Below, piece after piece: positions 12,333 through 26,046 of a stretch of 37,373 nt of DNA (position 1 is the stretch's first letter; the number at the start of each line of letters is the position of its first letter). A program made the translations under genes and the position numbers. This DNA comes from Treponema sp. (GTDB lineage Bacteria; Spirochaetota; Spirochaetia; Treponematales; Treponemataceae), in contig JAILRG010000144.1 in assembly GCA_024698325.1 (NCBI GenBank), positions 1 to 37,373 on the forward strand, given 5' to 3'. The notes under the pieces are model-generated. The model saw only the letters and a list, made by a program, of their open reading frames with translations. It ran no database searches and was not told the DNA's origin.

Positions 12333-12350
12333 CTCTCAGTTTAATGAGAG
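12333..12350 (-). terminator. weak hairpin at the end of the clostripain-like gene
   Basis: CTCTCA/TGAGAG, a 6-bp stem overlapping the TAA stop codon at 12341-12343, followed on the minus strand by TTTAAAATCTT. A weak terminator at best. Confidence 0.35.
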
Positions 12351-13867
12351 ATATGCTGTTCCCAGAGCCTTAGTAGCATACCCCAGTTTTTGCTGTAGCC
12401 GGTTTTTTCGCTGTAGGATGACCAGAGTCCGGACAGTCTGGGTTGCGTAACAATCGTAAGGCCTAGCTGGCAGTCTTCGCAGGTAAACTCGGTTTGACTC
12501 AATTCGGCAAGTTCAATAAAAGCAGAAAGATTCTTTTGATAGATGCAGTTTTCGGATACGGCATCATACTGGAATGCATTACAGTTGAACGAGCCATACC
12601 CCATTTTTCCCATCCAGGAAGTCTGAATGATGCGGGTAAGGTCAGAGGATACGGCACTGGCAGCCTGTTTGATTTCTGCGGGGATGTTGCAGTCTTCGGA
12701 GGCCTGGCAGAGATTCCGGCAGAAATAGCCGATGTCGTTTACATCTGCATAGGTTGCGCTGTAAGCCATGCCCTTGCAGTTATCAACATTGCTGCGGTCT
12801 TGCTTTAGGAAGGTGTCGTAGACTGTTACGGCAAGCTCTTCGTCTTTTAGCAGCAGCCCGGCGAGCGCGTCTATGTCCCTGTACAGCGATTCCTGGAGTT
12901 CTGCACGAAGGCTATATTGTACCTGCGTCAGCACGGTGTCGTAGCTGGTTCTGTCCCTGTTGTCATTTGTCTTTGCGCAATAAGATTTCATGTTGTAGGC
13001 ATAGGATGCGACTACTAACTGGCCGAAATCATCCCCTGAGCTGACATTCGGCAGGTTTCTGAAAATGACGTCGTATTTATTTGCATACGATATGTTGGGG
13101 CTTGCAAGCAGGTAATCGGCGCAGCCGCTCAGCAGATAGGCGATTTCCGCCGAGCCTTGCAGACAGCAGTCCATCCAGATTGTGTTTATGTGAATGTTTG
13201 CGTAATTGATGGCGTCTCTTATGTCAACAGCTGTCAGTATGGTATTGCTGCTACTGGTTTCGTCGGCGCAAAGAGAGCGGGCGGCGGAAAATCCACCGCT
13301 GACGTTTTCAAATTCGGTGCCGTTTCCGTGGTTGTTTAGTACCAGCACGGTGTTGTCAGAAGAAAAATGATTGTTCGCCCACTGCAGAAAGCTTGCAAGC
13401 GTCTGAACGTCGCCCATATCAGGTTCGGCCGTAAGCCACGAAGAAGCTGTAGCCGTCAAGTCCTCGGTGTCGGCGGCGAGCCACCAGTCTGTCTGTAAAT
13501 CTGGCGACAGCTCCATGCTGCTGCCAAGTTTGTAAATGCCGGCTTCCGGATGAATGCGGGTGTTTTTCCATTTTTTTGCTTCGGACTCACTTTGCCCGTC
13601 CCATAAAACGATGACAGTTGCAAGCGGGCTTGCGGAAGAACCGTCACGAAGCTGCGAAAGTCCATATTCGGCATAGAAAATGTCTTTCCAAAGCTCATCA
13701 TTCAGATTATTGTCAGCGTCACAATAGATAAGGAAAAGCCAGTCACTATTTTTTGGGGAACCTTCTTCTTCCGTCGGTGTGTTGAATAAAGCACAGGCTG
13801 ACAGCAGCGTCAGCGTGATACAGAGAAAAAATGCTTTTAAAACTAACCAACGCAGGTATCTGTGCAA
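12341..13867 (-). CDS. clostripain-like (C11) cysteine peptidase lipoprotein
   Basis: A 508-residue surface or periplasmic lipoprotein: a basic start, a hydrophobic segment and lipobox 'LSAC' with Cys25. The peptidase C11 fold is shown by 'LIYCDADNNLNDELW' near the N-terminus, a His in 'LVLNNHGNGTEF', and a Cys in 'TIWMDCCLQGSAEIAYLLSG'. Known C11 enzymes carry His and Cys at these places and cut after Arg or Lys. Here the usual D-A-C-L-M is D-C-C-L-Q, so two cysteines are adjacent. The start codon is TTG, with AGGGG upstream; no ATG precedes the signal peptide. It lies 58 bp downstream of the MMPL exporter on the same strand and may be read from it. Substrate unknown; secreted proteins or gut peptides are plausible. 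Confidence 0.87.
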   Translation of the reverse strand: MHRYLRWLVLKAFFLCITLTLLSACALFNTPTEEEGSPKNSDWLFLIYCDADNNLNDELWKDIFYAEYGLSQLRDGSSASPLATVIVLWDGQSESEAKKWKNTRIHPEAGIYKLGSSMELSPDLQTDWWLAADTEDLTATASSWLTAEPDMGDVQTLASFLQWANNHFSSDNTVLVLNNHGNGTEFENVSGGFSAARSLCADETSSSNTILTAVDIRDAINYANIHINTIWMDCCLQGSAEIAYLLSGCADYLLASPNISYANKYDVIFRNLPNVSSGDDFGQLVVASYAYNMKSYCAKTNDNRDRTSYDTVLTQVQYSLRAELQESLYRDIDALAGLLLKDEELAVTVYDTFLKQDRSNVDNCKGMAYSATYADVNDIGYFCRNLCQASEDCNIPAEIKQAASAVSSDLTRIIQTSWMGKMGYGSFNCNAFQYDAVSENCIYQKNLSAFIELAELSQTEFTCEDCQLGLTIVTQPRLSGLWSSYSEKTGYSKNWGMLLRLWEQHISH

Positions 13868-13925: not shown

Positions 13926-16589
13926 TTATTTTTGTGGTGATGAAGGCGCTTTAAAATGCCCGGGTGATTGTGAATCTTGTGGGGCCGGTGCAGAGGGCGG
14001 TTGCGCTGATTTTGCCTGAGGAAGAGCCGTGCAGAACGCGCAGAGGCAGGCTGTTGTAAGCCCGGCAGTAACGGTCAGGCCGATTGTGTGAACGGGAGCA
14101 AAGCTGATAAAGGTTAATGCGCCAAAGGACACGGCTGTCGTTAAAAAGGAAAGGCCGATGGCGAATCTGTTGAGATGAGAATCTGCCTTGTCGTCGTCTG
14201 CAGCAGCGCCTTCTATGGCGTAGATGATGTAATCAAGCCCGAGTCCGAAAACAAGCACCATGCCCGTAACGCTGAAAAAGCCGACGGGTTTTCCGGTAAG
14301 CGTAAGGACGGCAATGGTCGTCAGTACGGTGGTTAGCGGAATCAGGGCGATGCGGAAGAGGACTCGCGCCGGATAAAAGAATGCAAGCAGTATTAGGACA
14401 AGTACAAAGGCTGCCGACAGCAGTTTGAGCATGATGGCTGTCAGCTGATTCAGTTCTGTGCCGACATCGGACACTTTGTTTACGAAGGCGACTCCCGGAA
14501 TATCTGCCGCAAGGTCGCGAAAAACGGCTTCTTCAGCTGCCGTGTGGAGCGGCATAACGACGCTGCAGAAAACACCGTCAACTTCCCCGAGCCAGAGATT
14601 TGCAATAATGCTTTTTACGGCGGCTGGCAGGCGGCTTTCCAGGCTGATGCGCTTTTTGGCTGCAGCCTTGTACTGTGTGGCAAATCGTGCGGTGCCTGCC
14701 TCCGCGCTAAAGCCAAGCGTTTCGTACTGACTTTTTGCAAGCGGAAGTAATGCCTCTGCCGCCCTGTAGCTTTGTTCCTGCGTTTTTACTGAGGGAATAA
14801 AGCTGGTGACGGCCAGATAACTCTGCAATAATCCGCCGTTAGTGGCAGCGTCGAGTCTCTGCGTAAGCATTTCTTCTGTTTGAAGCACTGCCTCGGGACT
14901 GTCGCCGGAAACAAGGTAGTACCAGCCGGCAGAGCCGTAGTCCAGTACCTGTGCCGTAATCTTTTCGCTTTCGAACAGATGTTCGCTCATTGTATACATA
15001 TCCCGCAGGTTGTTATCAATCTGCAGTTGGTTTCTTAGAGCTAGCAGCGTAATGGCTGCCAGCGCGAGGATAATTACTGGTACGCGTGTGGTAAAATGCC
15101 GTGCAGAAAAATTGCGTGCGGTGCAAAGCCGTGTGCCAAAAGACTGTGGGGAACGCGGCGGCACAGTGCCAGATGCAGGCTTTTTCCAAAATGCGCCGTG
15201 TTTGGGGAGCGTTCTGGCCGGTGCGGCAGGAAGCGGGAGTGACGGGTACAGGCAGAGCACCCACAGAAATGCGCTCAGCAGGCCGGTAAACAGGAAAACG
15301 GCAACCTGTCGTAAAAACGGAAACGGCGCAAGAAATAAAGATGCAAAGCAAATCTCGGTGGAGATAAAACTCAGGAGAATTCCCCGGCGAATCTTTCTGC
15401 TGACAGCGTTTCCATCTGCACAGGCGGCATCAGCTTTCCAGTGCACGAAAAAATGAATTGAATAATCAAGGCTGGTGCCGATAAGCGTCGTTCCGAACAC
15501 AAAGGTCAGCACGTGGATTTCACGGAAAAACAAAAGCACTGTCACGAGGCCCGTCCCGCAGGAAACGGCAACGGCAAGTGCAGAAATCAACGCGGGAAGC
15601 GGACTGCGGAAAATATACAGGAACAGCAGGATTATGAGCAGGATTCCGGCTATGGAAATGACCGTCACCTGTTTCTGGACGCTGGAAGCGCTTTCCCAGC
15701 TGTGGAACGGCACTCCGCTGTAGGCAAAACGTACGCCGCTGTCGGCGGTTATTGCGGCGCAGCTTTTGTAGATGGCAGGGACTGCAGCGCTGCTTGTCGT
15801 AAGCGATGTGGAATCTGGCGTTAAAATGCCTCGCAGGAGTACGAACCAGAGGCCGTCATGCTCTGCTGCAAGTACGCCCTCGTGTATCTGCATGGCGCCA
15901 GTGTTGGCTCCTGCAAGCGAAAGAATCCTCAGCAAGGCGCCTCCGGCAAGGTCAAAAGGGTCGTCTTCCAGAGAGGAAAAGTCTGTAAGCCCGTACATGC
16001 CCATGCCGAAAATGCGGGAAAGCGCTTCTTCGGCTACTGTTTCTGCCCTCCCCTGCTCCAGCGATTCGATGGTGTCTCCGTCCAGGAGGACGAAGCGGTT
16101 GTCTGATAAAAAGCCGGTAAGCTCCGAGGCCATGTCGCTTCCAGCATAGAGCGAAAGTTCTTCAAAACAGGCTGGAACGGCGGGCAGAGCCGGCATTTCG
16201 GCTTCTGGCGCTGCCAGTCCGGAAGCAGCCGATTCGAGGTCAGTAGCTTCGGCTGATTTTTCGGGCGCTGCGTTCGGCAAAAACGCGCGGTAGAACCTTT
16301 CGGCAGCGGCTTTCGCGCGGGAAAAATCTTCGCTGTAAGCAAGCAGCGTCACAGACCTGCTGGTACGGCTCCCTAGCGCGGCGTCTGCTTTTGCTGCCTG
16401 TTTAAGGCTGTGGGACGGCGGCAGAATGTCAAAAAGGCTGGTATTAAAACGGGGTGCGGGCAGAACAGCGAGCGAAAGCAAAAAAGCCGCTGCAAGTGCT
16501 GCGTAAAAAATCAGGCAAATCAGCGCAAGCCGTGCAGAACGCCGCGTGCAGGGCGCCTTTCGTGCCAAAAAATCAGTGTGAAAAGTCAT
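13926..16589 (-). CDS. RND-superfamily (MMPL-like) lipid exporter
   Basis: An 887-residue inner-membrane protein with the duplicated RND/MMPL layout: one helix (about 22-44), a large periplasmic domain (about 46-315), a group of five helices (320-460), a helix near 510-525, a second periplasmic domain (to about 715) and five more helices (720-860). It includes 'FVFGTTLIGTSLDYSIHFF' and 'GMVLVFGLGLDYIIYAIEG', the paired helix-4-like segments with the proton-relay Asp. This is the predicted-exporter type found next to LolA-like proteins, GT2 and thioesterases in aryl-polyene/flexirubin loci, and the same partners are here. The start has no ribosome site, but an extended -10 (TGATACAAT) ends 7 nt before the ATG. 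Likely cargo is a lipid or lipid-linked glycan; unproved. LolA and UppP lie upstream on the same strand. Confidence 0.9.
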   Translation of the reverse strand: MTFHTDFLARKAPCTRRSARLALICLIFYAALAAAFLLSLAVLPAPRFNTSLFDILPPSHSLKQAAKADAALGSRTSRSVTLLAYSEDFSRAKAAAERFYRAFLPNAAPEKSAEATDLESAASGLAAPEAEMPALPAVPACFEELSLYAGSDMASELTGFLSDNRFVLLDGDTIESLEQGRAETVAEEALSRIFGMGMYGLTDFSSLEDDPFDLAGGALLRILSLAGANTGAMQIHEGVLAAEHDGLWFVLLRGILTPDSTSLTTSSAAVPAIYKSCAAITADSGVRFAYSGVPFHSWESASSVQKQVTVISIAGILLIILLFLYIFRSPLPALISALAVAVSCGTGLVTVLLFFREIHVLTFVFGTTLIGTSLDYSIHFFVHWKADAACADGNAVSRKIRRGILLSFISTEICFASLFLAPFPFLRQVAVFLFTGLLSAFLWVLCLYPSLPLPAAPARTLPKHGAFWKKPASGTVPPRSPQSFGTRLCTARNFSARHFTTRVPVIILALAAITLLALRNQLQIDNNLRDMYTMSEHLFESEKITAQVLDYGSAGWYYLVSGDSPEAVLQTEEMLTQRLDAATNGGLLQSYLAVTSFIPSVKTQEQSYRAAEALLPLAKSQYETLGFSAEAGTARFATQYKAAAKKRISLESRLPAAVKSIIANLWLGEVDGVFCSVVMPLHTAAEEAVFRDLAADIPGVAFVNKVSDVGTELNQLTAIMLKLLSAAFVLVLILLAFFYPARVLFRIALIPLTTVLTTIAVLTLTGKPVGFFSVTGMVLVFGLGLDYIIYAIEGAAADDDKADSHLNRFAIGLSFLTTAVSFGALTFISFAPVHTIGLTVTAGLTTACLCAFCTALPQAKSAQPPSAPAPQDSQSPGHFKAPSSPQK

Positions 16590-16596
16590 CGGCTGG

Positions 16597-16602
16597 ATTG
16601 TA
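16597..16602 (-). promoter_or_regulatory. extended -10 for a leaderless MMPL exporter transcript
   Basis: TACAAT on the minus strand, preceded by TGA (extended -10), ends 7 nt before the ATG at 16589. The -35 region is poor. No Shine-Dalgarno sequence exists for this gene. Confidence 0.4.
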
Positions 16603-16618
16603 TCAGCAATCAGTTTTT

Positions 16619-17368
16619 TTAGAAAGCAAACAGGCGCGCTTCTTCCTCGCTTAAAGAAGTAGAAAAACGCTGTTCTGAAAAATCGTAGCGTATGCTGTCG
16701 CCGCTTGGTTCGTTCATGGTGATGGAAGTGATGAGCGAGCGCGCTGCATGCAAAGATTGTGCCGGACTTTTGCTGGTGCCGGTCATCACAATAGAAGAAA
16801 TCATCTGCTGTAAGGTACTGTCTTTAGGTTTTAATGCCGCCTGCCAGCTGTTCTTTTCCGCTGTCTGCTCAAAAAATACCGTAAAATGCTCTGTCAGCAT
16901 GGCCGCATCTCCGCGGAAAACGGAGCTGATGACTGCAGAGAGTTCCCGGAATGTTGCGTTTCCTGCGGCGTCGAGTTTTGTCTGCTTTCCGCTGGCAGTG
17001 GTCTGAAGGATTCCCCGCTCCGAGACAGTCATGGTGGAAGCAAACGGCTTTTTTGTCTGCCAGACGATGCCGCCGGCGGATGCCGTGCTGTTGGCGGCGA
17101 TGATGTAGGTGCCGCTTGAAACGATGGAACGGTTTATTGTAGCGATGTGCTTTGTCTGCGTAAAATTTCCGCGCTGCACGGCGGCTTCAGAAAGAGCCGT
17201 ACAGATTTCCGTAAAAGCCGGACTGTTTTCACTGGAGAGCGGATGGTCGTATACGTCTGCCGCCGGGAACCACAGCACAGCCGCTGTCAGCGCAAGAACT
17301 GCAGCCTTGCACTTACGCGACTGTCTGTCAGAAACACTGTCGGTATGCCAGAAACGGATAGCTTTCAT
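16619..17368 (-). CDS. LolA-like outer-membrane lipoprotein carrier protein
   Basis: A 249-residue secreted protein. After a basic start, residues of about 22-38 are hydrophobic with a likely cleavage at 'AADVYD'. The mature part has the LolA/LolB beta-barrel signature: 'GNFTQTKHIATINRSIVSSGTYI', 'GGIVWQTKKPFAST' and 'FTVFFEQT'. In the family this half-barrel carries an acyl chain across the periplasm. It stands 29 bp upstream of the MMPL exporter and 34 bp downstream of uppP. LolA-like proteins paired with such exporters are a known feature of aryl-polyene-type loci, so its cargo is more likely the exported lipid than general lipoproteins. Sequence similarity to true LolA is low and the start is uncertain because no clear ribosome site is seen. 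Confidence 0.75.
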   Translation of the reverse strand: MKAIRFWHTDSVSDRQSRKCKAAVLALTAAVLWFPAADVYDHPLSSENSPAFTEICTALSEAAVQRGNFTQTKHIATINRSIVSSGTYIIAANSTASAGGIVWQTKKPFASTMTVSERGILQTTASGKQTKLDAAGNATFRELSAVISSVFRGDAAMLTEHFTVFFEQTAEKNSWQAALKPKDSTLQQMISSIVMTGTSKSPAQSLHAARSLITSITMNEPSGDSIRYDFSEQRFSTSLSEEEARLFAF

Positions 17369-17402
17369 GCTTGGTCTAGGGGAAACGCTGCTTGTTCTGC
17401 GA

Positions 17403-18257
17403 TTACAGGAAGATAAGGCCTAAAACGCCAAGCGGAATCAGGTATGCTGCGAACCATTCCAGGCGTCCCTTGCGGATAAGGCGCATAAGCCAGGTCAGGG
17501 CGAGGTAGCCGGCAGCAAAAGCGGCGGCGCAGCCTGCGATGACAGGAGAAGCTCCGATAGAGCCGGCAACGGCGTCCAAATCTTTCAGTTCCAGAATGAA
17601 TGCGCCTAAAATTGCGGGAATAGATACGATGAATGAGTATTCACCGGCAGAAACGCGGTCAACACCGGAAAAAAGTGCGCCTGCGATGGTAGAGCCGCTG
17701 CGGCTGACGCCCGGAAGCGTGCCGATGCCCTGTGCAAAACCGATAATCAGCGCCTGCCACCAGCGCACGCCTGTAAAGGGACGGTCGCCGCGAACGCCGC
17801 TGGAAGCAGCGTAATGCAGTGAAATAAGCTTATCTGTTACTGCGCTTCCAATTAAGATTGCTGCGGTAAACAGGAAGCCGATGCAGGTAGCGTATATGGA
17901 AAGCTCCGGAATGAATTTGCTGGTAACAAAACCGATGACGCCGGTTACAGCTGTCGTGATGATAATCGTCAGAATCATGCGGCGGTCTTGTTTTTCGGCG
18001 ACAGCGGATGTGTGGCGGGGCAGCGGACGACGGAAAATCCAGCGGAATAATACACTGATGAGTCGCCCGATAATTCTGCGGAAGTACAGCAGGACGGCGC
18101 AGAGCGTTGCCACATGCAGGAATACGTCAAACAGGAGCGGAACGTCGTTCAGTCCCAGTAAAATTTGCGCAAGCTTAAGATGTCCGCTTGAAGAAATCGG
18201 CAGGAATTCAGCAATTCCCTGAATTACGCCTAACAGAATACCTTGAAATGTCGTCAT
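17403..18257 (-). CDS. uppP: undecaprenyl-diphosphate phosphatase
   Basis: A 284-residue integral membrane protein of the BacA/UppP family. It removes a phosphate from undecaprenyl diphosphate, recycling the lipid carrier for peptidoglycan and glycan export. Both catalytic motifs are intact: 'GIAEFLPISSSGH' (14-26) and 'PGVSRSGST' (182-190). Roughly eight hydrophobic segments are seen, with a charged cytoplasmic loop around residues 70-93 that is longer than usual. AGGTGG stands 4 nt before the ATG and an extended -10 TGCTACAAT lies upstream at 18277-18285. It is the first gene of the unit uppP-lolA-MMPL and is divergent from the GT2 gene, which suggests that carrier-lipid supply is tied to this envelope locus. 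Confidence 0.95.
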   Translation of the reverse strand: MTTFQGILLGVIQGIAEFLPISSSGHLKLAQILLGLNDVPLLFDVFLHVATLCAVLLYFRRIIGRLISVLFRWIFRRPLPRHTSAVAEKQDRRMILTIIITTAVTGVIGFVTSKFIPELSIYATCIGFLFTAAILIGSAVTDKLISLHYAASSGVRGDRPFTGVRWWQALIIGFAQGIGTLPGVSRSGSTIAGALFSGVDRVSAGEYSFIVSIPAILGAFILELKDLDAVAGSIGASPVIAGCAAAFAAGYLALTWLMRLIRKGRLEWFAAYLIPLGVLGLIFL

Positions 18258-18276
18258 AAAACCACCTTTTGGCGTT

Positions 18277-18309
18277 ATTGTAGCAAAAACGGTAGGTAAA
18301 TGCTACAAT
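18277..18309. promoter_or_regulatory. symmetric divergent promoter of uppP and GT2
   Basis: ATTGTAGCA (18277-18285) and TGCTACAAT (18301-18309) form a 9-bp perfect inverted repeat with a 15-bp spacer. Each arm reads as an extended -10 element (TGC-TACAAT), one for each divergent gene. Each promoter's -35 zone covers the other's -10, so the two should compete for RNA polymerase. The arm facing GT2 ends 7 nt before its ATG. Confidence 0.55.
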
Positions 18310-18316
18310 AATCGGC

Positions 18317-19081
18317 ATGAAGAATGGCATTATAATTCCAGTCTACCGGCATGGAAAAGCTTGTACTGCCGTCGTGGCGTCTCTTGCTCCGCTGAATCTG
18401 CCCATCATCCTTGTTGACGACGGAAACGAAACTGAGACCAAGAACTATCTCGCTCAGATTGCCGGTACCTATCCTGATGTTGTTACGCTGGTGACTCTTG
18501 AACGCAACAGCGGAAAAGGCGGTGCATTTGCAGCCGGCATGGAAAAAGCCCGGGAGATGGGGCTGACGCATGTGCTTCAGATAGATGCCGACGGTCAGCA
18601 CGACACCAGCAGCATTCCATTTTTCTTTGAGCGGGCGGCAGAAAATCCGTCAGCACTTATCTGCGGCTACCCTCAATATGATGAAACAGCGCCAGCTCAC
18701 CGCAAAAACGGCCGCAAGTTTGCCAACGGCTGGACGAACCTCGTGTGCTGGAAGCGGGATATTGCCGATGCGCTCTGCGGATTCCGCATTTATCCGGTAG
18801 AAGAAACCTGGCGCTTTACTCATTCGGCCCGGTTTGACAGGCGCATGGGCTTTGATATCGACATTCTTGTCCGCCTTATCTGGCGGGGGCTAAGCTACCG
18901 CTTTTATCCGGTGTGGGTGACCTATCCCAGCGACGGCATTTCTAATTTTCACGCCGTCCGGGACAACATACGCATTTCTGCCGTGTTTACACAGTTGTGC
19001 TGCGGCATGATTCTCAGAAGCCCCGTGCTGCTGTTTCGTGTGCTGCGCCGCAAGTTTTTCGCAGGGAGATACTATGAGTAA
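18317..19081 (+). CDS. family 2 glycosyltransferase of the aryl-polyene-locus type
   Basis: A 254-residue GT-A fold enzyme. 'IIIPVYRHGKACTAVVASL' opens the fold, 'ILVDDGN' (31-37) binds the nucleotide, 'NSGKGGAFAAGM' follows and 'LQIDADGQHD' supplies the metal-binding DxD-like Asp pair; 'CGFRIYPV' and 'MGFDIDILVRLIWRG' are further GT2 blocks. The C-terminal 'YPSDGISNFHAVRDNIRIS' closely recalls the GT2 part of the GT2-acyltransferase proteins of aryl-polyene gene clusters; here no acyltransferase domain follows. Donor and acceptor are unknown. There is no ribosome site, and the -10 TACAAT ends 7 nt before the ATG, so the mRNA is probably leaderless. It overlaps the YitT gene by 8 bp and is divergent from uppP-lolA-MMPL. 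Confidence 0.88.
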   Translation: MKNGIIIPVYRHGKACTAVVASLAPLNLPIILVDDGNETETKNYLAQIAGTYPDVVTLVTLERNSGKGGAFAAGMEKAREMGLTHVLQIDADGQHDTSSIPFFFERAAENPSALICGYPQYDETAPAHRKNGRKFANGWTNLVCWKRDIADALCGFRIYPVEETWRFTHSARFDRRMGFDIDILVRLIWRGLSYRFYPVWVTYPSDGISNFHAVRDNIRISAVFTQLCCGMILRSPVLLFRVLRRKFFAGRYYE

Positions 19082-19955
19082 ACCGCCAATTCACAGTGCT
19101 TACAAAATCCCGCATCCGGCAGTGCGCTTTCTCTTAATTTGTCTTGGCGCCGTGCTGATGTCAGTAAACCTTAACACGTTCGTCCATTCTGCAGGGCTGC
19201 TTCCCGGCGGATTTACTGGAGTTGTGCTTCTGCTGCAGGAGGTGTTCCTTCGCTTTTTCGGCATTCATATTCCGTTCAGTGCGCTTTTGTGGACGATGAA
19301 TGCAATTCCGGCTGCCATCAGCTTTAAGCTCATCGGCAAAAATTTTACGCTCTACTCCTGCCTGATGATTGTTATTTCCGGTTTTTTGACGGATCTGCTT
19401 CCCTCGTTCCCTGTGACGGGGGATTTGCTTTTGTGCGCTGTATTCGGCGGTATCGTGAACGGTATTGCAGTGTCGCTGTGCCTTTCTGCTGATGCTACCA
19501 GCGGCGGCACGGATTTTATCGCAATTCTGATTTCCGAGCGTACGGGGCGCAATGCCTTTAACGCCATACTTGCAGGAAATGTAATCGTCCTTTTGGTGGC
19601 GGCGCTGCTTTTTAGCTGGGACCGGGCGCTGTATTCCATTATCTTTCAGTATTCCTCGACGCAGATTGTAAACTTCCTGTACCGCCGCTATGCGAAGACA
19701 ACGATGCTTGTCATTACAGAAAAAAGCGACGAGGCGTACCAGATTATCCGGGATGTGGGAAAGCACGATGCCACGCTTTTTGTGGGAACCGGGTGCTACA
19801 CCGGTAAGCCCAAAAAAATGCTCTATTCAGTTTTGAGCGGAGAGGAATCGCAGATGATTGCTACAGAAATTCGGCGCATAGATCCCGGTGCATTTATTAA
19901 TATCCTGCAGTCGAAGCAGATTCTCGGGCGCTTTTTCCGGCGGCCGACGAACTGA
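19074..19955 (+). CDS. YitT family membrane protein (DUF161/DUF2179)
   Basis: A 293-residue protein with five to six hydrophobic segments (about residues 15-205), including 'GGFTGVVLLLQEVF' and 'SADATSGGTDFIAILIS', then a soluble C-terminal domain (about 215-290) with 'VGTGCYTGKPKKMLYSVLS', the DUF2179 signature. The family is widespread and its transport or sensing role is not established. The ATG at 19074 is chosen over a more upstream in-frame start (19038) because GGGAG lies 6 nt upstream and it gives the usual N-terminus; this overlaps the end of the GT2 gene by 8 bp, so translation is coupled. Its link to the GT2/thioesterase function is positional only. Confidence 0.88.
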   Translation: MSKPPIHSAYKIPHPAVRFLLICLGAVLMSVNLNTFVHSAGLLPGGFTGVVLLLQEVFLRFFGIHIPFSALLWTMNAIPAAISFKLIGKNFTLYSCLMIVISGFLTDLLPSFPVTGDLLLCAVFGGIVNGIAVSLCLSADATSGGTDFIAILISERTGRNAFNAILAGNVIVLLVAALLFSWDRALYSIIFQYSSTQIVNFLYRRYAKTTMLVITEKSDEAYQIIRDVGKHDATLFVGTGCYTGKPKKMLYSVLSGEESQMIATEIRRIDPGAFINILQSKQILGRFFRRPTN

Positions 19956-19972
19956 CGGCCTGTAGCTGAAGC

Positions 19973-20002
19973 TTGCACACGGTTAGCCCAGTGCGATACA
20001 CT
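19973..20002 (+). promoter_or_regulatory. promoter of the thioesterase gene (leaderless)
   Basis: TTGCAC (19973-19978), 18-bp spacer, TACACT (19997-20002). The -10 ends 6 nt before the ATG at 20009, and there is no ribosome site, so the transcript should begin at or next to the start codon. Confidence 0.5.
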
Positions 20003-20008
20003 GATGCC

Positions 20009-20461
20009 ATGGCGAAAAGATTAGACCCGCATACGCTGACTGCAGAAGTAGTCTTTAAGATTGAGTTTTATGAAGTGGATTCCATGCGCATAGCCTGGCA
20101 CGGCAATTACATCAATTATTTTGATAAAGCCCGCTGTGCCTTGCTGGATAAAATTGGGTATACCTATCTTGATATGGAAGAGAGCGGTTATGTATTTCCT
20201 GTTACCGAAGTCAAAGTGAAGTACATGAAATCCCTGCGCTTTGGGGATACCTGCCGGGCAAAAGCCATCCTTGATGAATACGAGAACATGCTGCGCATGC
20301 ATTTCGAGCTGTATAATGCCGAAACCGGCGAGCTGACGACAAAAGGCACGGTCAGTCAGATGTGCGTGGAAGTAAAAACGGGCGAGAGTCAGTTTGTCTG
20401 CCCGAAAGTGTTTACAGATAAAGTTGAGGCGCTGTTACGGGCGCAGCAAACTGCAGAGTAA
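20009..20461 (+). CDS. hotdog-fold acyl-CoA/acyl-ACP thioesterase (YbgC/4HBT family)
   Basis: A 150-residue cytoplasmic enzyme. The diagnostic block 'VDSMRIAWHGNYINYFDKAR' (Asp-x17-Arg pattern of 4-hydroxybenzoyl-CoA-type thioesterases) is followed by 'IGYTYLDMEESGYVFPVTEV' and 'VKYMKSLRFGDT', and the strand 'TTKGTVSQMCVEV' ends the fold. It should cleave acyl or aryl thioesters from CoA or carrier protein. The type with WHGNY is common in aryl-polyene clusters. The start at 20009 is preferred to an in-frame upstream start at 19973, because the upstream stretch coincides with a good promoter. It lies 53 bp after YitT on the same strand. No acyl carrier protein, ketosynthase or ligase is present in the window, so the natural substrate is unknown. 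Confidence 0.88.
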   Translation: MAKRLDPHTLTAEVVFKIEFYEVDSMRIAWHGNYINYFDKARCALLDKIGYTYLDMEESGYVFPVTEVKVKYMKSLRFGDTCRAKAILDEYENMLRMHFELYNAETGELTTKGTVSQMCVEVKTGESQFVCPKVFTDKVEALLRAQQTAE

Positions 20462-23263: not shown

Positions 23264-23283
23264 ACATGCGGGGTATTTTTTTT

Positions 23284-26046
23284 ATGAAAAAAGCGTTTTA
23301 TGGACTATGTGCACTGGCAGTTCTTTTTGCGGCCGCCGGTTGTGCAAGCAGCAGTGGTGATGACGGCGACAGTACGGTCGCGCTGACAGATATATCGCTC
23401 GATACGGCGCTGTCAGCAATTAAAACCGAAACCGGGTATATGCTTTCGCTGAATAACGAGGTATCTGTCAGCCCGGATTTTACGCCAGAAAATGCCACAA
23501 ACAAGGGATATACAATTACTGTCGTCTCAGAGGGTGACGAAGAGGCTGTCAGCTGGGATTCTTCGGAATGCGTACTGAAAGGAGCTGCCATAGGAAGCAG
23601 CACGGTAACAGTCACTGCCTCATACGACGAGACGATTTCAAAGAGCTACACCATTTCGGTGGCCGAAGTTGCTTTGACAGGCCTGTCGCTGTCAGCCGAA
23701 ACATGCTATCTGGGCCGGACTGCAAGTGTGACCCCGGCGTATACCCCGGCCAATGCTTCATATAAAACACTTACCTGGAGCTCTTCTGACGAAAATATTG
23801 CGACTGTCGACAGCTCCGGCACGATAACAGGAGTTGCGGAAGGCACGGTAACGATTACTGCGGTAAGTGCCGCGGACGATTCTGTCAGCGCAGAACTGGA
23901 ACTGACGGTTAAGCCGGTTTTGCCTACAGCGCTCAGCCTTAAAAAGAGTGCGTTTGTCGTGCAGGCAGGCGGTTCCTGTGACATCGTGCCGTGTTTTACT
24001 CCGGAAGACACGACAAATCAGGCAGTTACGTTTGTGTCAGATAACGACAATGTGACTGTCAGCGACTCGGGCGTTGTAAGCGTTTCTGACAGCGTGACGA
24101 GCGGCACCAAAGTATCCGTTACCGTAAAAAGCGTCGCAGTACCAAGCCTTACCGCAACAGCGACCGTTACAGTAACGGATGGAGAAACATTCATCATTGA
24201 CGATGAAAACTCGGCATACGGCTTTGTAAGCAGCACGGGTTCTCTGTCATCTAATCAGAATTATTCCGGCTTTTCGGGCAGTTCTTTTTTTGAAGGCTTT
24301 AGCCAGGGAACGGGCGACAGCCTGGTTTATTCAGTGTATGCGGCGGCAGAGCAGGATGCGGCGGTGTTGCTCCACTATGCATACTGGGGTTCCAAAACCG
24401 ATTTGCGCGGAGCATACATTGTCGTAAACGGCGCTGTCGACAGTGACATACTTTATCTTAACTGGACAAGTAAAAACGGCAAAAATGACAATATTAAAAG
24501 CTATGATACCGCCGGAAATGCTCTCACCTATCATCAGATTTGGGAAGATTCCAATGAAATTACGGTACATCTTGATGCCGGCGAAAACCAGATTCGTGTT
24601 ATAGCAGTGCCGAGCGGAACCGAAATGCCGGACGCGGTCTACCCTTCCGGTGTTGATACGACAGCGACGACCTGTACCTATACGGCAAGCGGCTATCTAT
24701 CCAATATCGACTACATTCAGATTAGGGGAAGCGGTCTTGGGGCCGGTTCCAATAGCCTTGCCTTCTACTCTGTTGCTGCAAGCGGCGATTTTGGAAGCGC
24801 AACTGTCACTCCAGTTCAGGATTTCTACAAAGAAGGCGCCTCCGTTACGCTGAGTGCAACTGCAAACAGCGGGTACCAGTTTGATGTCTGGCATGGCCGG
24901 ACGGCTTCCGGCGATTTTGTCGCTTCCACGGAAGAAAACTACACGTTCACAATTTCTGATGACGTAACGGTTTCTGCGCATTGTATCCCCTCAGGCTACA
25001 CGCCGGACTCTGCCCTGACCGGATATGCTGGAATTACTGCTGACAGGAGCGATGCTGCCTATACAATCAGCGGCGGCGCAGGCGGCGAAACACTGACAAT
25101 CAGCTCGCTTTCTGACTTAACGGCTGCTGCCAGCAAATTATCTGGAGATACGCCGTATATCGTCAAGTTTACCAGCAGCAGCAGAATTTGCACGAGCAAC
25201 AACAAGAGCATCATCTGCTCTATCGGCTCGAACAAAACGCTGTATGGCGTGGTGACAGGCGCAGGTCTTAAGAACATAGAGCTTCGCGTCAGCGGGCAGA
25301 ACGTGATTATCCGTAACCTGATTCTTGGTGAAGTTATCGCCTATGACACGCTTTCAGACTATGCTGGCAGCGGAAACGATGCGCTGTCGCTGAATGGTGC
25401 AAGACATGTGTGGGTAGACCATTGCGAACTGCGGTCAAATACAACGCCTCTGGATATAAACGGAAAGACGGTGACTAACTCCAGCGACAGTGATTTTGCG
25501 AAGGACTGGTATGACGGGCTGCTGGATATAAAAAATGGCGCGACATGGATTACGGTCAGCAACTGTTATTTCCACGACCACTACAAGGCCTGTCTGTGTG
25601 GTTCCAGCGACGAAGGACCCGGAGTCAATTCAGAGGGCTACAGCGACAGTGATATGCGTGTTACGTTTGCGAATAATTACTGGTACAACATCAATGCGCG
25701 CCAGCCGCTTTTCAGGTATGGCAAGGCGCATATCTACGGCAGCTATTTTGATGCCGGATCTTTCAGTGGAAGCGCAAGCTTTATAAACTGCCGCGCTGGC
25801 AGCGAACTGTACATTGAGGGAAACACGTTTACGGGCACAAAAAGTGACAGCTACACAATCGGCTTTTACTATGCGGATTCAAGTAAGGCCTATGGAACAA
25901 CGTCTGGAACGTGGGTCAGTGTGAATAACAGCGGGGTTTCCAGTAAGACAGGAACCAGCTATAGGCCAGCGTATGGGGTAAGCGGCAGCACTGCCCCGTC
26001 AGCAAAGCCGGACGGAGTTGGTGCCACAATCGCATCTTCACTCTGA
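23284..26046 (+). CDS. multidomain pectate lyase lipoprotein (PL1)
   Basis: A 920-residue exported lipoprotein; signal peptide and lipobox-like 'AAGC' with Cys20. In order: three Ig-like Big_2 domains (about 31-125, 129-208, 213-299), a CBM35-like carbohydrate-binding domain (about 302-480) with 'AVLLHYAYWGSKTDLRGAYI' and 'LSNIDYIQIRG', an InlB-type beta repeat (about 495-565), and a PL1 pectate lyase (about 575-920). The lyase shows 'VWVDHCEL' (709-716), 'YDGLLDIKNGA' (743-753) and 'NARQPLFRYG' with Arg806 and Arg811, matching the RxPxxR active site, so it should split polygalacturonate by beta-elimination at the cell surface. The ATG at 23284 is used because it starts the signal peptide; 18 nt upstream another in-frame start exists. 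Regulation by a palindrome at its promoter and a yesU-like gene about 0.8 kb downstream support pectin use. Confidence 0.93.
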   Translation: MKKAFYGLCALAVLFAAAGCASSSGDDGDSTVALTDISLDTALSAIKTETGYMLSLNNEVSVSPDFTPENATNKGYTITVVSEGDEEAVSWDSSECVLKGAAIGSSTVTVTASYDETISKSYTISVAEVALTGLSLSAETCYLGRTASVTPAYTPANASYKTLTWSSSDENIATVDSSGTITGVAEGTVTITAVSAADDSVSAELELTVKPVLPTALSLKKSAFVVQAGGSCDIVPCFTPEDTTNQAVTFVSDNDNVTVSDSGVVSVSDSVTSGTKVSVTVKSVAVPSLTATATVTVTDGETFIIDDENSAYGFVSSTGSLSSNQNYSGFSGSSFFEGFSQGTGDSLVYSVYAAAEQDAAVLLHYAYWGSKTDLRGAYIVVNGAVDSDILYLNWTSKNGKNDNIKSYDTAGNALTYHQIWEDSNEITVHLDAGENQIRVIAVPSGTEMPDAVYPSGVDTTATTCTYTASGYLSNIDYIQIRGSGLGAGSNSLAFYSVAASGDFGSATVTPVQDFYKEGASVTLSATANSGYQFDVWHGRTASGDFVASTEENYTFTISDDVTVSAHCIPSGYTPDSALTGYAGITADRSDAAYTISGGAGGETLTISSLSDLTAAASKLSGDTPYIVKFTSSSRICTSNNKSIICSIGSNKTLYGVVTGAGLKNIELRVSGQNVIIRNLILGEVIAYDTLSDYAGSGNDALSLNGARHVWVDHCELRSNTTPLDINGKTVTNSSDSDFAKDWYDGLLDIKNGATWITVSNCYFHDHYKACLCGSSDEGPGVNSEGYSDSDMRVTFANNYWYNINARQPLFRYGKAHIYGSYFDAGSFSGSASFINCRAGSELYIEGNTFTGTKSDSYTIGFYYADSSKAYGTTSGTWVSVNNSGVSSKTGTSYRPAYGVSGSTAPSAKPDGVGATIASSL

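Follow-up and report, generated by a model that had tools for sequence, protein, structure and literature searches.

What does this locus export, and does it do so as part of a system of its own or as a detached piece of a known one? The window, by which we mean the whole 37,373-nucleotide stretch of Treponema DNA analysed here, holds at positions 13,926 to 20,461 a compact group of membrane, carrier and lipid-modifying genes that the initial annotation had read both as a split locus resembling half of an aryl-polyene (APE) cluster and as a possible new pathway. We consider it very likely that these genes are the glycosyltransferase half of ApeJ together with ApeK, ApeL and ApeM of the canonical aryl-polyene lipid pathway, which in this Treponema of gut type is broken into at least four loci. 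The likeness to half of an APE cluster was correctly recognized: the GT2, thioesterase, LolA-like and MMPL genes of the window form the membrane-export quarter of the pathway, and the rest of it lies in three other places of the genome. Gene names follow the E. coli gene list (Table 1 of PMC8253772).

Six window genes in two divergent sets

All six predicted open reading frames were found in place and their proposed families confirmed, with an MMPL exporter, a LolA-like carrier and UppP on the minus strand facing a GT2 glycosyltransferase, a YitT protein and a thioesterase on the plus strand across a 59-bp gap (18258..18316). The exporter ApeM (13926..16589, minus strand, 887 aa) is of the MMPL/RND inner-membrane type (Pfam MMPL, 3.8e-11; HAE3/HpnN profiles match weakly), carries the Asp-Tyr pairs of MMPL transporters at D375-Y376 and D786-Y787, both invariant in an alignment of 7 exporters, and is 42-57% identical to exporters that relatives encode within or near APE blocks. 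Its neighbour ApeL (16619..17368, minus strand), a LolA-like periplasmic lipid carrier with a signal-like segment at its N-terminus, matches the NCBIfam model LolA2_flexi at 5.6e-19 and 68 bits, below the model cut-off of 125 bits. The AlphaFold model of ApeL (pLDDT 80.9, built from four sequences only) resembles LolA crystal structures, with a best Foldseek E value of 3.8e-13, and in almost every genome of the genus with both genes, ApeL immediately precedes ApeM. The undecaprenyl-diphosphatase UppP/BacA (17403..18257, minus strand; BacA, 2.4e-65) begins the minus set, 34 nt ahead of ApeL.

On the plus strand, the glycosyltransferase half of ApeJ (18317..19081; GT2 profile, 4.7e-16) keeps the DDG and DAD motifs and is 59-66% identical to the GT2 proteins of APE blocks in most relatives. 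It is followed by a YitT/DUF2179 membrane protein with a putative pathway role (about 19074..19955, plus strand; Pfam, 1.4e-48) and by ApeK (19973..20461, plus strand), a YbgC/FadM-type hotdog thioesterase (Pfam 4HBT_2 and 4HBT, 6.5e-10) that is 71-77% identical to the ApeK proteins of loci L007 and L008, where the gene lies at or adjoining ApeL-ApeM. Within each set the genes are closely spaced (gaps of 34 and 29 nt in the minus set; a near-overlap, then 17 nt, in the plus set), which suggests two predicted transcription units.

More than 13 kb of unrelated genes flank the ape genes of the window on either side. Directly downstream of ApeM and on the same strand is a clostripain-family (C11) peptidase with a lipoprotein-like N-terminus (12341-13867), and annotation of the relatives' loci with the same seeds labelled no homolog of it. 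Further along, positions 23266-26046 encode a secreted, lipoprotein-like pectate lyase that carries Big_2 and InlB B-repeat-like domains.

The rest of the pathway is encoded elsewhere in the genome

Ketosynthase, carrier-protein and ligase genes had been noted as absent, with the proposal to look for them elsewhere in the genome; the absence holds within the window but not for the genome, where these genes were found on contigs C103 and C38. A ketosynthase search of the window genome, a draft of 148 contigs that is about 90% complete, led to five places. Contig C103 (L013, 1-6390) carries nine ape genes on alternating strands, namely ApeI (+), ApeG (-), the acyltransferase half of ApeJ (+), ApeH (-), ApeC (+), ApeO (-), ApeP (-), ApeF (-) and ApeE (-), and their families comprise a ketosynthase, an ApeI-like and a second dehydratase, two carrier proteins (the ACPs ApeE and ApeF), a ligase, a truncated ketosynthase (PF13723), an LpxL-like acyltransferase and a COG4648-type membrane protein. 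ApeG, ApeH and ApeI are separate genes here, whereas relatives fuse G-H or G-H-I. On C38, ApeN (DUF3261), ApeQ (a FabG2-type reductase) and ApeR (a PRK09116 ketosynthase) form a group in which a FolE-like gene on the opposite strand separates ApeQ from ApeR. C61 carries ApeD, of the PF01553 type; we rejected the LpxL-like acyltransferase as a candidate ApeD, as the gene order of E. coli shows it to be the acyltransferase half of ApeJ. The ORF of 504 aa that follows ApeD on C61 (L061, 593-3021) looks by eye like a fused shikimate-pathway dehydratase/dehydrogenase.

Comparison with solved structures agrees with these assignments. The best solved match of ApeO is one chain of the X. doucetiae complex 6QSP (1.6e-66) and that of ApeC the other chain (5.4e-8), the A. 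baumannii ApeO-ApeC structure 7F28 being second best for both. ApeI, which also matches the Pfam ApeI-like family, finds its best solved match in 6QSR, which we take to be the Xenorhabdus ApeI-ApeP complex. For ApeQ the best match is 7CZC, followed by 6NRP, whose sequence is that of A. baumannii ApeQ, and TIGR01831 scores above its cut-off; ApeR reaches 587 bits with PRK09116 against a cut-off of 470. ApeH resembles 4-coumarate ligase and is a candidate aromatic-acid:ACP ligase. ApeP matches generic FabZ models only, and its name also rests on its position in relatives' APE blocks, while ApeG, which has no Pfam match, was named by similarity to the G-H fusions of relatives.

Together the contigs hold what marks an APE pathway: ApeO with ApeC, ApeR with ApeQ, the carrier and ligase set ApeE/F/H, paired ApeI/ApeP dehydratases, the transport set ApeG/L/M/N, and ApeD/ApeJ for the lipid anchor with the thioesterase ApeK. 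Clustering at a single locus, which is usual though not essential, is replaced by a spread over at least four contigs. No match to the methyltransferase ApeB was found in this roughly nine-tenths complete genome; 14 of the 17 relatives searched have one. ApeB excepted, the pathway has apparently been broken up while staying complete. Because the APE enzymes are encoded in the same genome and relatives hold one complete APE block, the earlier suggestion of a previously undescribed pathway is unsupported.

From one block to several: gene layouts in relatives

Related Treponema have the same genes either as one block or as several. In G160, locus L011 (contig C131) is a single block in E. coli order, B-C-D-E-F-GHI-J-(acyltransferase)-K-L-M-N-O-P-Q, and such compact layouts probably show what the original arrangement looked like. 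Other genomes break at recurrent joints that leave the blocks B-C-D, E-F-GH-I-J, K-L-M and N-O-P-Q-R, and the window genome is the most scrambled among those examined. ApeM and ApeO share a contig in 62 genomes, where they are less than 7 kb apart in 46, 7-20 kb apart in 4 and more than 20 kb apart in 12 (30 kb in G066 and 100 kb in G090, for example); they lie on different contigs in 43 more genomes, which says little in drafts.

That the scattering is an artefact of assembly or binning is a reading that the 148-contig draft invites, with C38 and C103 both ending beside ape genes, and we hold it to be extremely improbable. The ape genes of the window sit between unrelated flanks of more than 13 kb, and C38 and C103 resemble the window in tetranucleotide profile (correlation 0.97), loci of other species reaching no more than 0.87. 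C61 correlates with the window at 0.87 and, at only 4 kb, cannot confirm its binning. The scattering is also not just assembly breakage, because in G182, assembled as a single contig, 281 kb separate K-L-M (near 165 kb) from N-O-P-Q-R (near 447 kb). Since C38 and C103 end close to ape genes, the two may nevertheless belong to one larger locus.

In a tree of four concatenated proteins the window genome is sister to G120, G214, G205, G114 and G147, all of them split. Seven of 12 per-gene trees agree (M, J-acyltransferase, N, Q, R, L and P, with R and L grouping with part of the split genomes only), whereas those of O, C, H, D and J place the window genome elsewhere, with support that is mixed and in some cases weak.

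Co-occurrence links the exporter to the polyene enzymes

Across 215 genomes of the family, 105 have both ApeM and ApeO, 92 have neither, 14 have ApeM only and 4 have ApeO only, an association whose Fisher p of 7e-40 takes no account of common descent and is descriptive only. Second ApeM-like exporter copies occur in G155 (C18), G186 (C56), G113 (C19) and G014 (C10); that of G155 is remote from other ape genes, and that of G186 adjoins an ApeL-like gene.

These patterns bear on the possibility that the window genes are a stand-alone exporter of another glycolipid or of a spirochaete outer-membrane lipid, unlinked to APE enzymes. The window genes are indeed physically apart from the polyene enzymes, ApeO went undetected in 14 of the 119 genomes with ApeM, and the two second copies that we checked, in G155 and G186, are away from other ape biosynthetic genes. 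We nonetheless judge this reading very improbable: ApeM and ApeO co-occur strongly, the nearest relatives of the window proteins lie inside complete APE blocks, and the window genome has a single copy each of ApeM, ApeJ, ApeK and ApeO. Gene presence, family membership, collinearity in relatives, co-occurrence and physical scattering are established for the ape genes.

The expectation that the window's neighbours would be conserved together holds for ApeL-ApeM and mostly for ApeK-L-M, but not for UppP or YitT. We rejected UppP as a pathway part, as it is single-copy in 11 of 13 genomes and occupies other places in all ten relatives with a copy; the copy in the window is the sole one of its genome, and UppP is a housekeeping gene and an accidental neighbour of the ape genes. 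YitT follows ApeJ directly also in G205 (L042, 8077-9706, C38), where the protein is 71% identical and the ape layout a different one. As a conserved part it is unsupported beyond G205, being located elsewhere or undetected in the other genomes. The YitT-ApeJ adjacency in two genomes may serve as a lead and is no evidence of function.

Promoter-like boxes and the fate of the scattered genes

The gap between UppP and ApeJ contains a perfect 10-bp inverted repeat (18275-18311), TTATTGTAGC-N17-GCTACAATAA, with a TACAAT facing outward in each arm, the plus-strand copy lying 7 nt before the ApeJ ATG. This repeat could be a two-way promoter or operator. An operator shared by the ape genes was rejected, the repeat not being found on the other ape contigs.

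Boxes of this -10-like kind are widespread in the window genome, where one lies 4-9 nt before the first ATG in 12.6% of 261 genes against 3.1% in shuffles (G000 contigs, about 400 kb sampled), most commonly ending 6-7 nt before it; a sigma-70 scan, by comparison, found promoter-like sites no more numerous than in shuffles. A -10-like box near the ATG has been read as a mark of leaderless genes (PMC3160421), and our counts suggest that leaderless transcripts are common in this spirochaete group. Most relatives tested show the signal, compact ones such as G160 and G186 included, and for that reason the genome-wide signal does not explain the scattering. Leaderless promoters as a mark separating scattered from compact lineages therefore failed genome-wide, G160 and G186 being positive and the split G066 negative.

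The excess that distinguishes the window genome is specific to the ape genes themselves. A box 6-9 nt before the ATG precedes 8 of its 17 ape genes (M, J, J-acyltransferase, G, N, D, I and E), compared with 3 of 44 in the larger-block genomes G160, G113 and G186 (p = 0.0008, the comparison genomes having been chosen after the result) and 31 of 218 in all other genomes (p = 0.002). All genomes were treated alike in guessing start codons, with scans of up to 40 codons, and those of ApeE and ApeD are especially uncertain. The alternating strands of C103 and the 8 boxed genes are consistent with separate, leaderless transcription, and the boxes suggest independent transcription for many of the scattered pieces.

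Lost gene order, the missing ApeB match and the alternating strands of C103 might instead mark decaying remnants of an APE cluster whose product is no longer made. This seems to us improbable, as the ape reading frames are open on all four contigs, motifs are kept where checked (in ApeM, in ApeJ and in the ApeO alignment), many ape genes have their own -10-like box, and other split genomes retain the same gene set. Returning to a near-complete but broken-up pathway, we offer as a tentative idea, possible rather than probable, that the APE pathway is dissolving gene by gene in this Treponema group, its genes acquiring short leaderless-type promoters of their own so that it would persist as a dispersed regulon and not as a cluster. 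If pieces gained their own promoters, operon structure would no longer be needed. Were this so, nature would have set up in this lineage a test of what holds biosynthetic clusters together, and pathways of this kind would be missed or under-called by standard cluster-finding software.

A proposed route from starter to outer membrane

From the families present we infer the catalytic and transport steps, the product and its expression. By analogy with E. coli and Xenorhabdus, ApeH would load an aromatic starter onto an ACP (ApeE/F), ApeO-ApeC with ApeR would extend the chain, and reduction by ApeQ followed by dehydration by ApeI/ApeP would yield a conjugated aryl polyene, which ApeK may edit or release. 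ApeD, the ApeJ glycosyltransferase and the separate LpxL-like acyltransferase would then attach it to a glycolipid anchor, after which ApeM would hand the lipid on to ApeL, moving it across the inner membrane or out of it, with the LolB-like ApeN as the presumed receiver at the outer membrane.

Comparison with known systems

The closest reference is the apeA-R cluster of E. coli CFT073, in which the transferase and acyltransferase parts of ApeJ are one gene (PMC8253772). All of ApeC-ApeR have a family counterpart in the window genome, and in compact G160 the order of the genes from B to Q is unchanged. The window genome differs in having its ape genes in at least four places, the halves of ApeJ as separate genes, and no ApeB found. 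Solved APE enzymes are available from Xenorhabdus doucetiae and Acinetobacter baumannii (6QSP, 6QSR, 7F28, 7F27 and 6NRP/7CAW; PMC8358021, PMC8041823); these are the best or second-best solved relatives of ApeO, ApeC, ApeI and ApeQ, although ApeC and ApeI are distant from them in sequence. Exporter, LolA, glycosyltransferase, ligase and FabG-like functions also occur in the flexirubin cluster of Chitinophaga pinensis (PMC3992019), and the LolA of the window matches LolA2_flexi and the FabG of its genome matches FlxB, both below cut-off. The surroundings of the ape genes give no hint of the dialkylresorcinol genes (darA/darB) or of the tyrosine ammonia-lyase of that pathway.

The near-complete scattered pathway, along with the 12 of 62 genomes in which ApeM and ApeO are more than 20 kb apart, suggests that the distribution of APE pathways in gut spirochaetes may be underestimated. 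Within a single genus the layouts grade from compact to scrambled, a series in which the reasons for cluster persistence can be tested. The open-access literature that we searched, consisting mostly of titles and abstract openings, held no description of APE genes scattered one by one. An APE cluster has been predicted in the gut spirochaete Treponema_D sp900541945 (PMC8863827), to which we take the Treponema of the window to be related; it was reported as one cluster, its genes not being studied singly and scattering not being mentioned. The occurrence of APE clusters in gut Treponema is already on record (PMC8863827), and what the window and its genome present is an ordinary pathway in an unusual arrangement.
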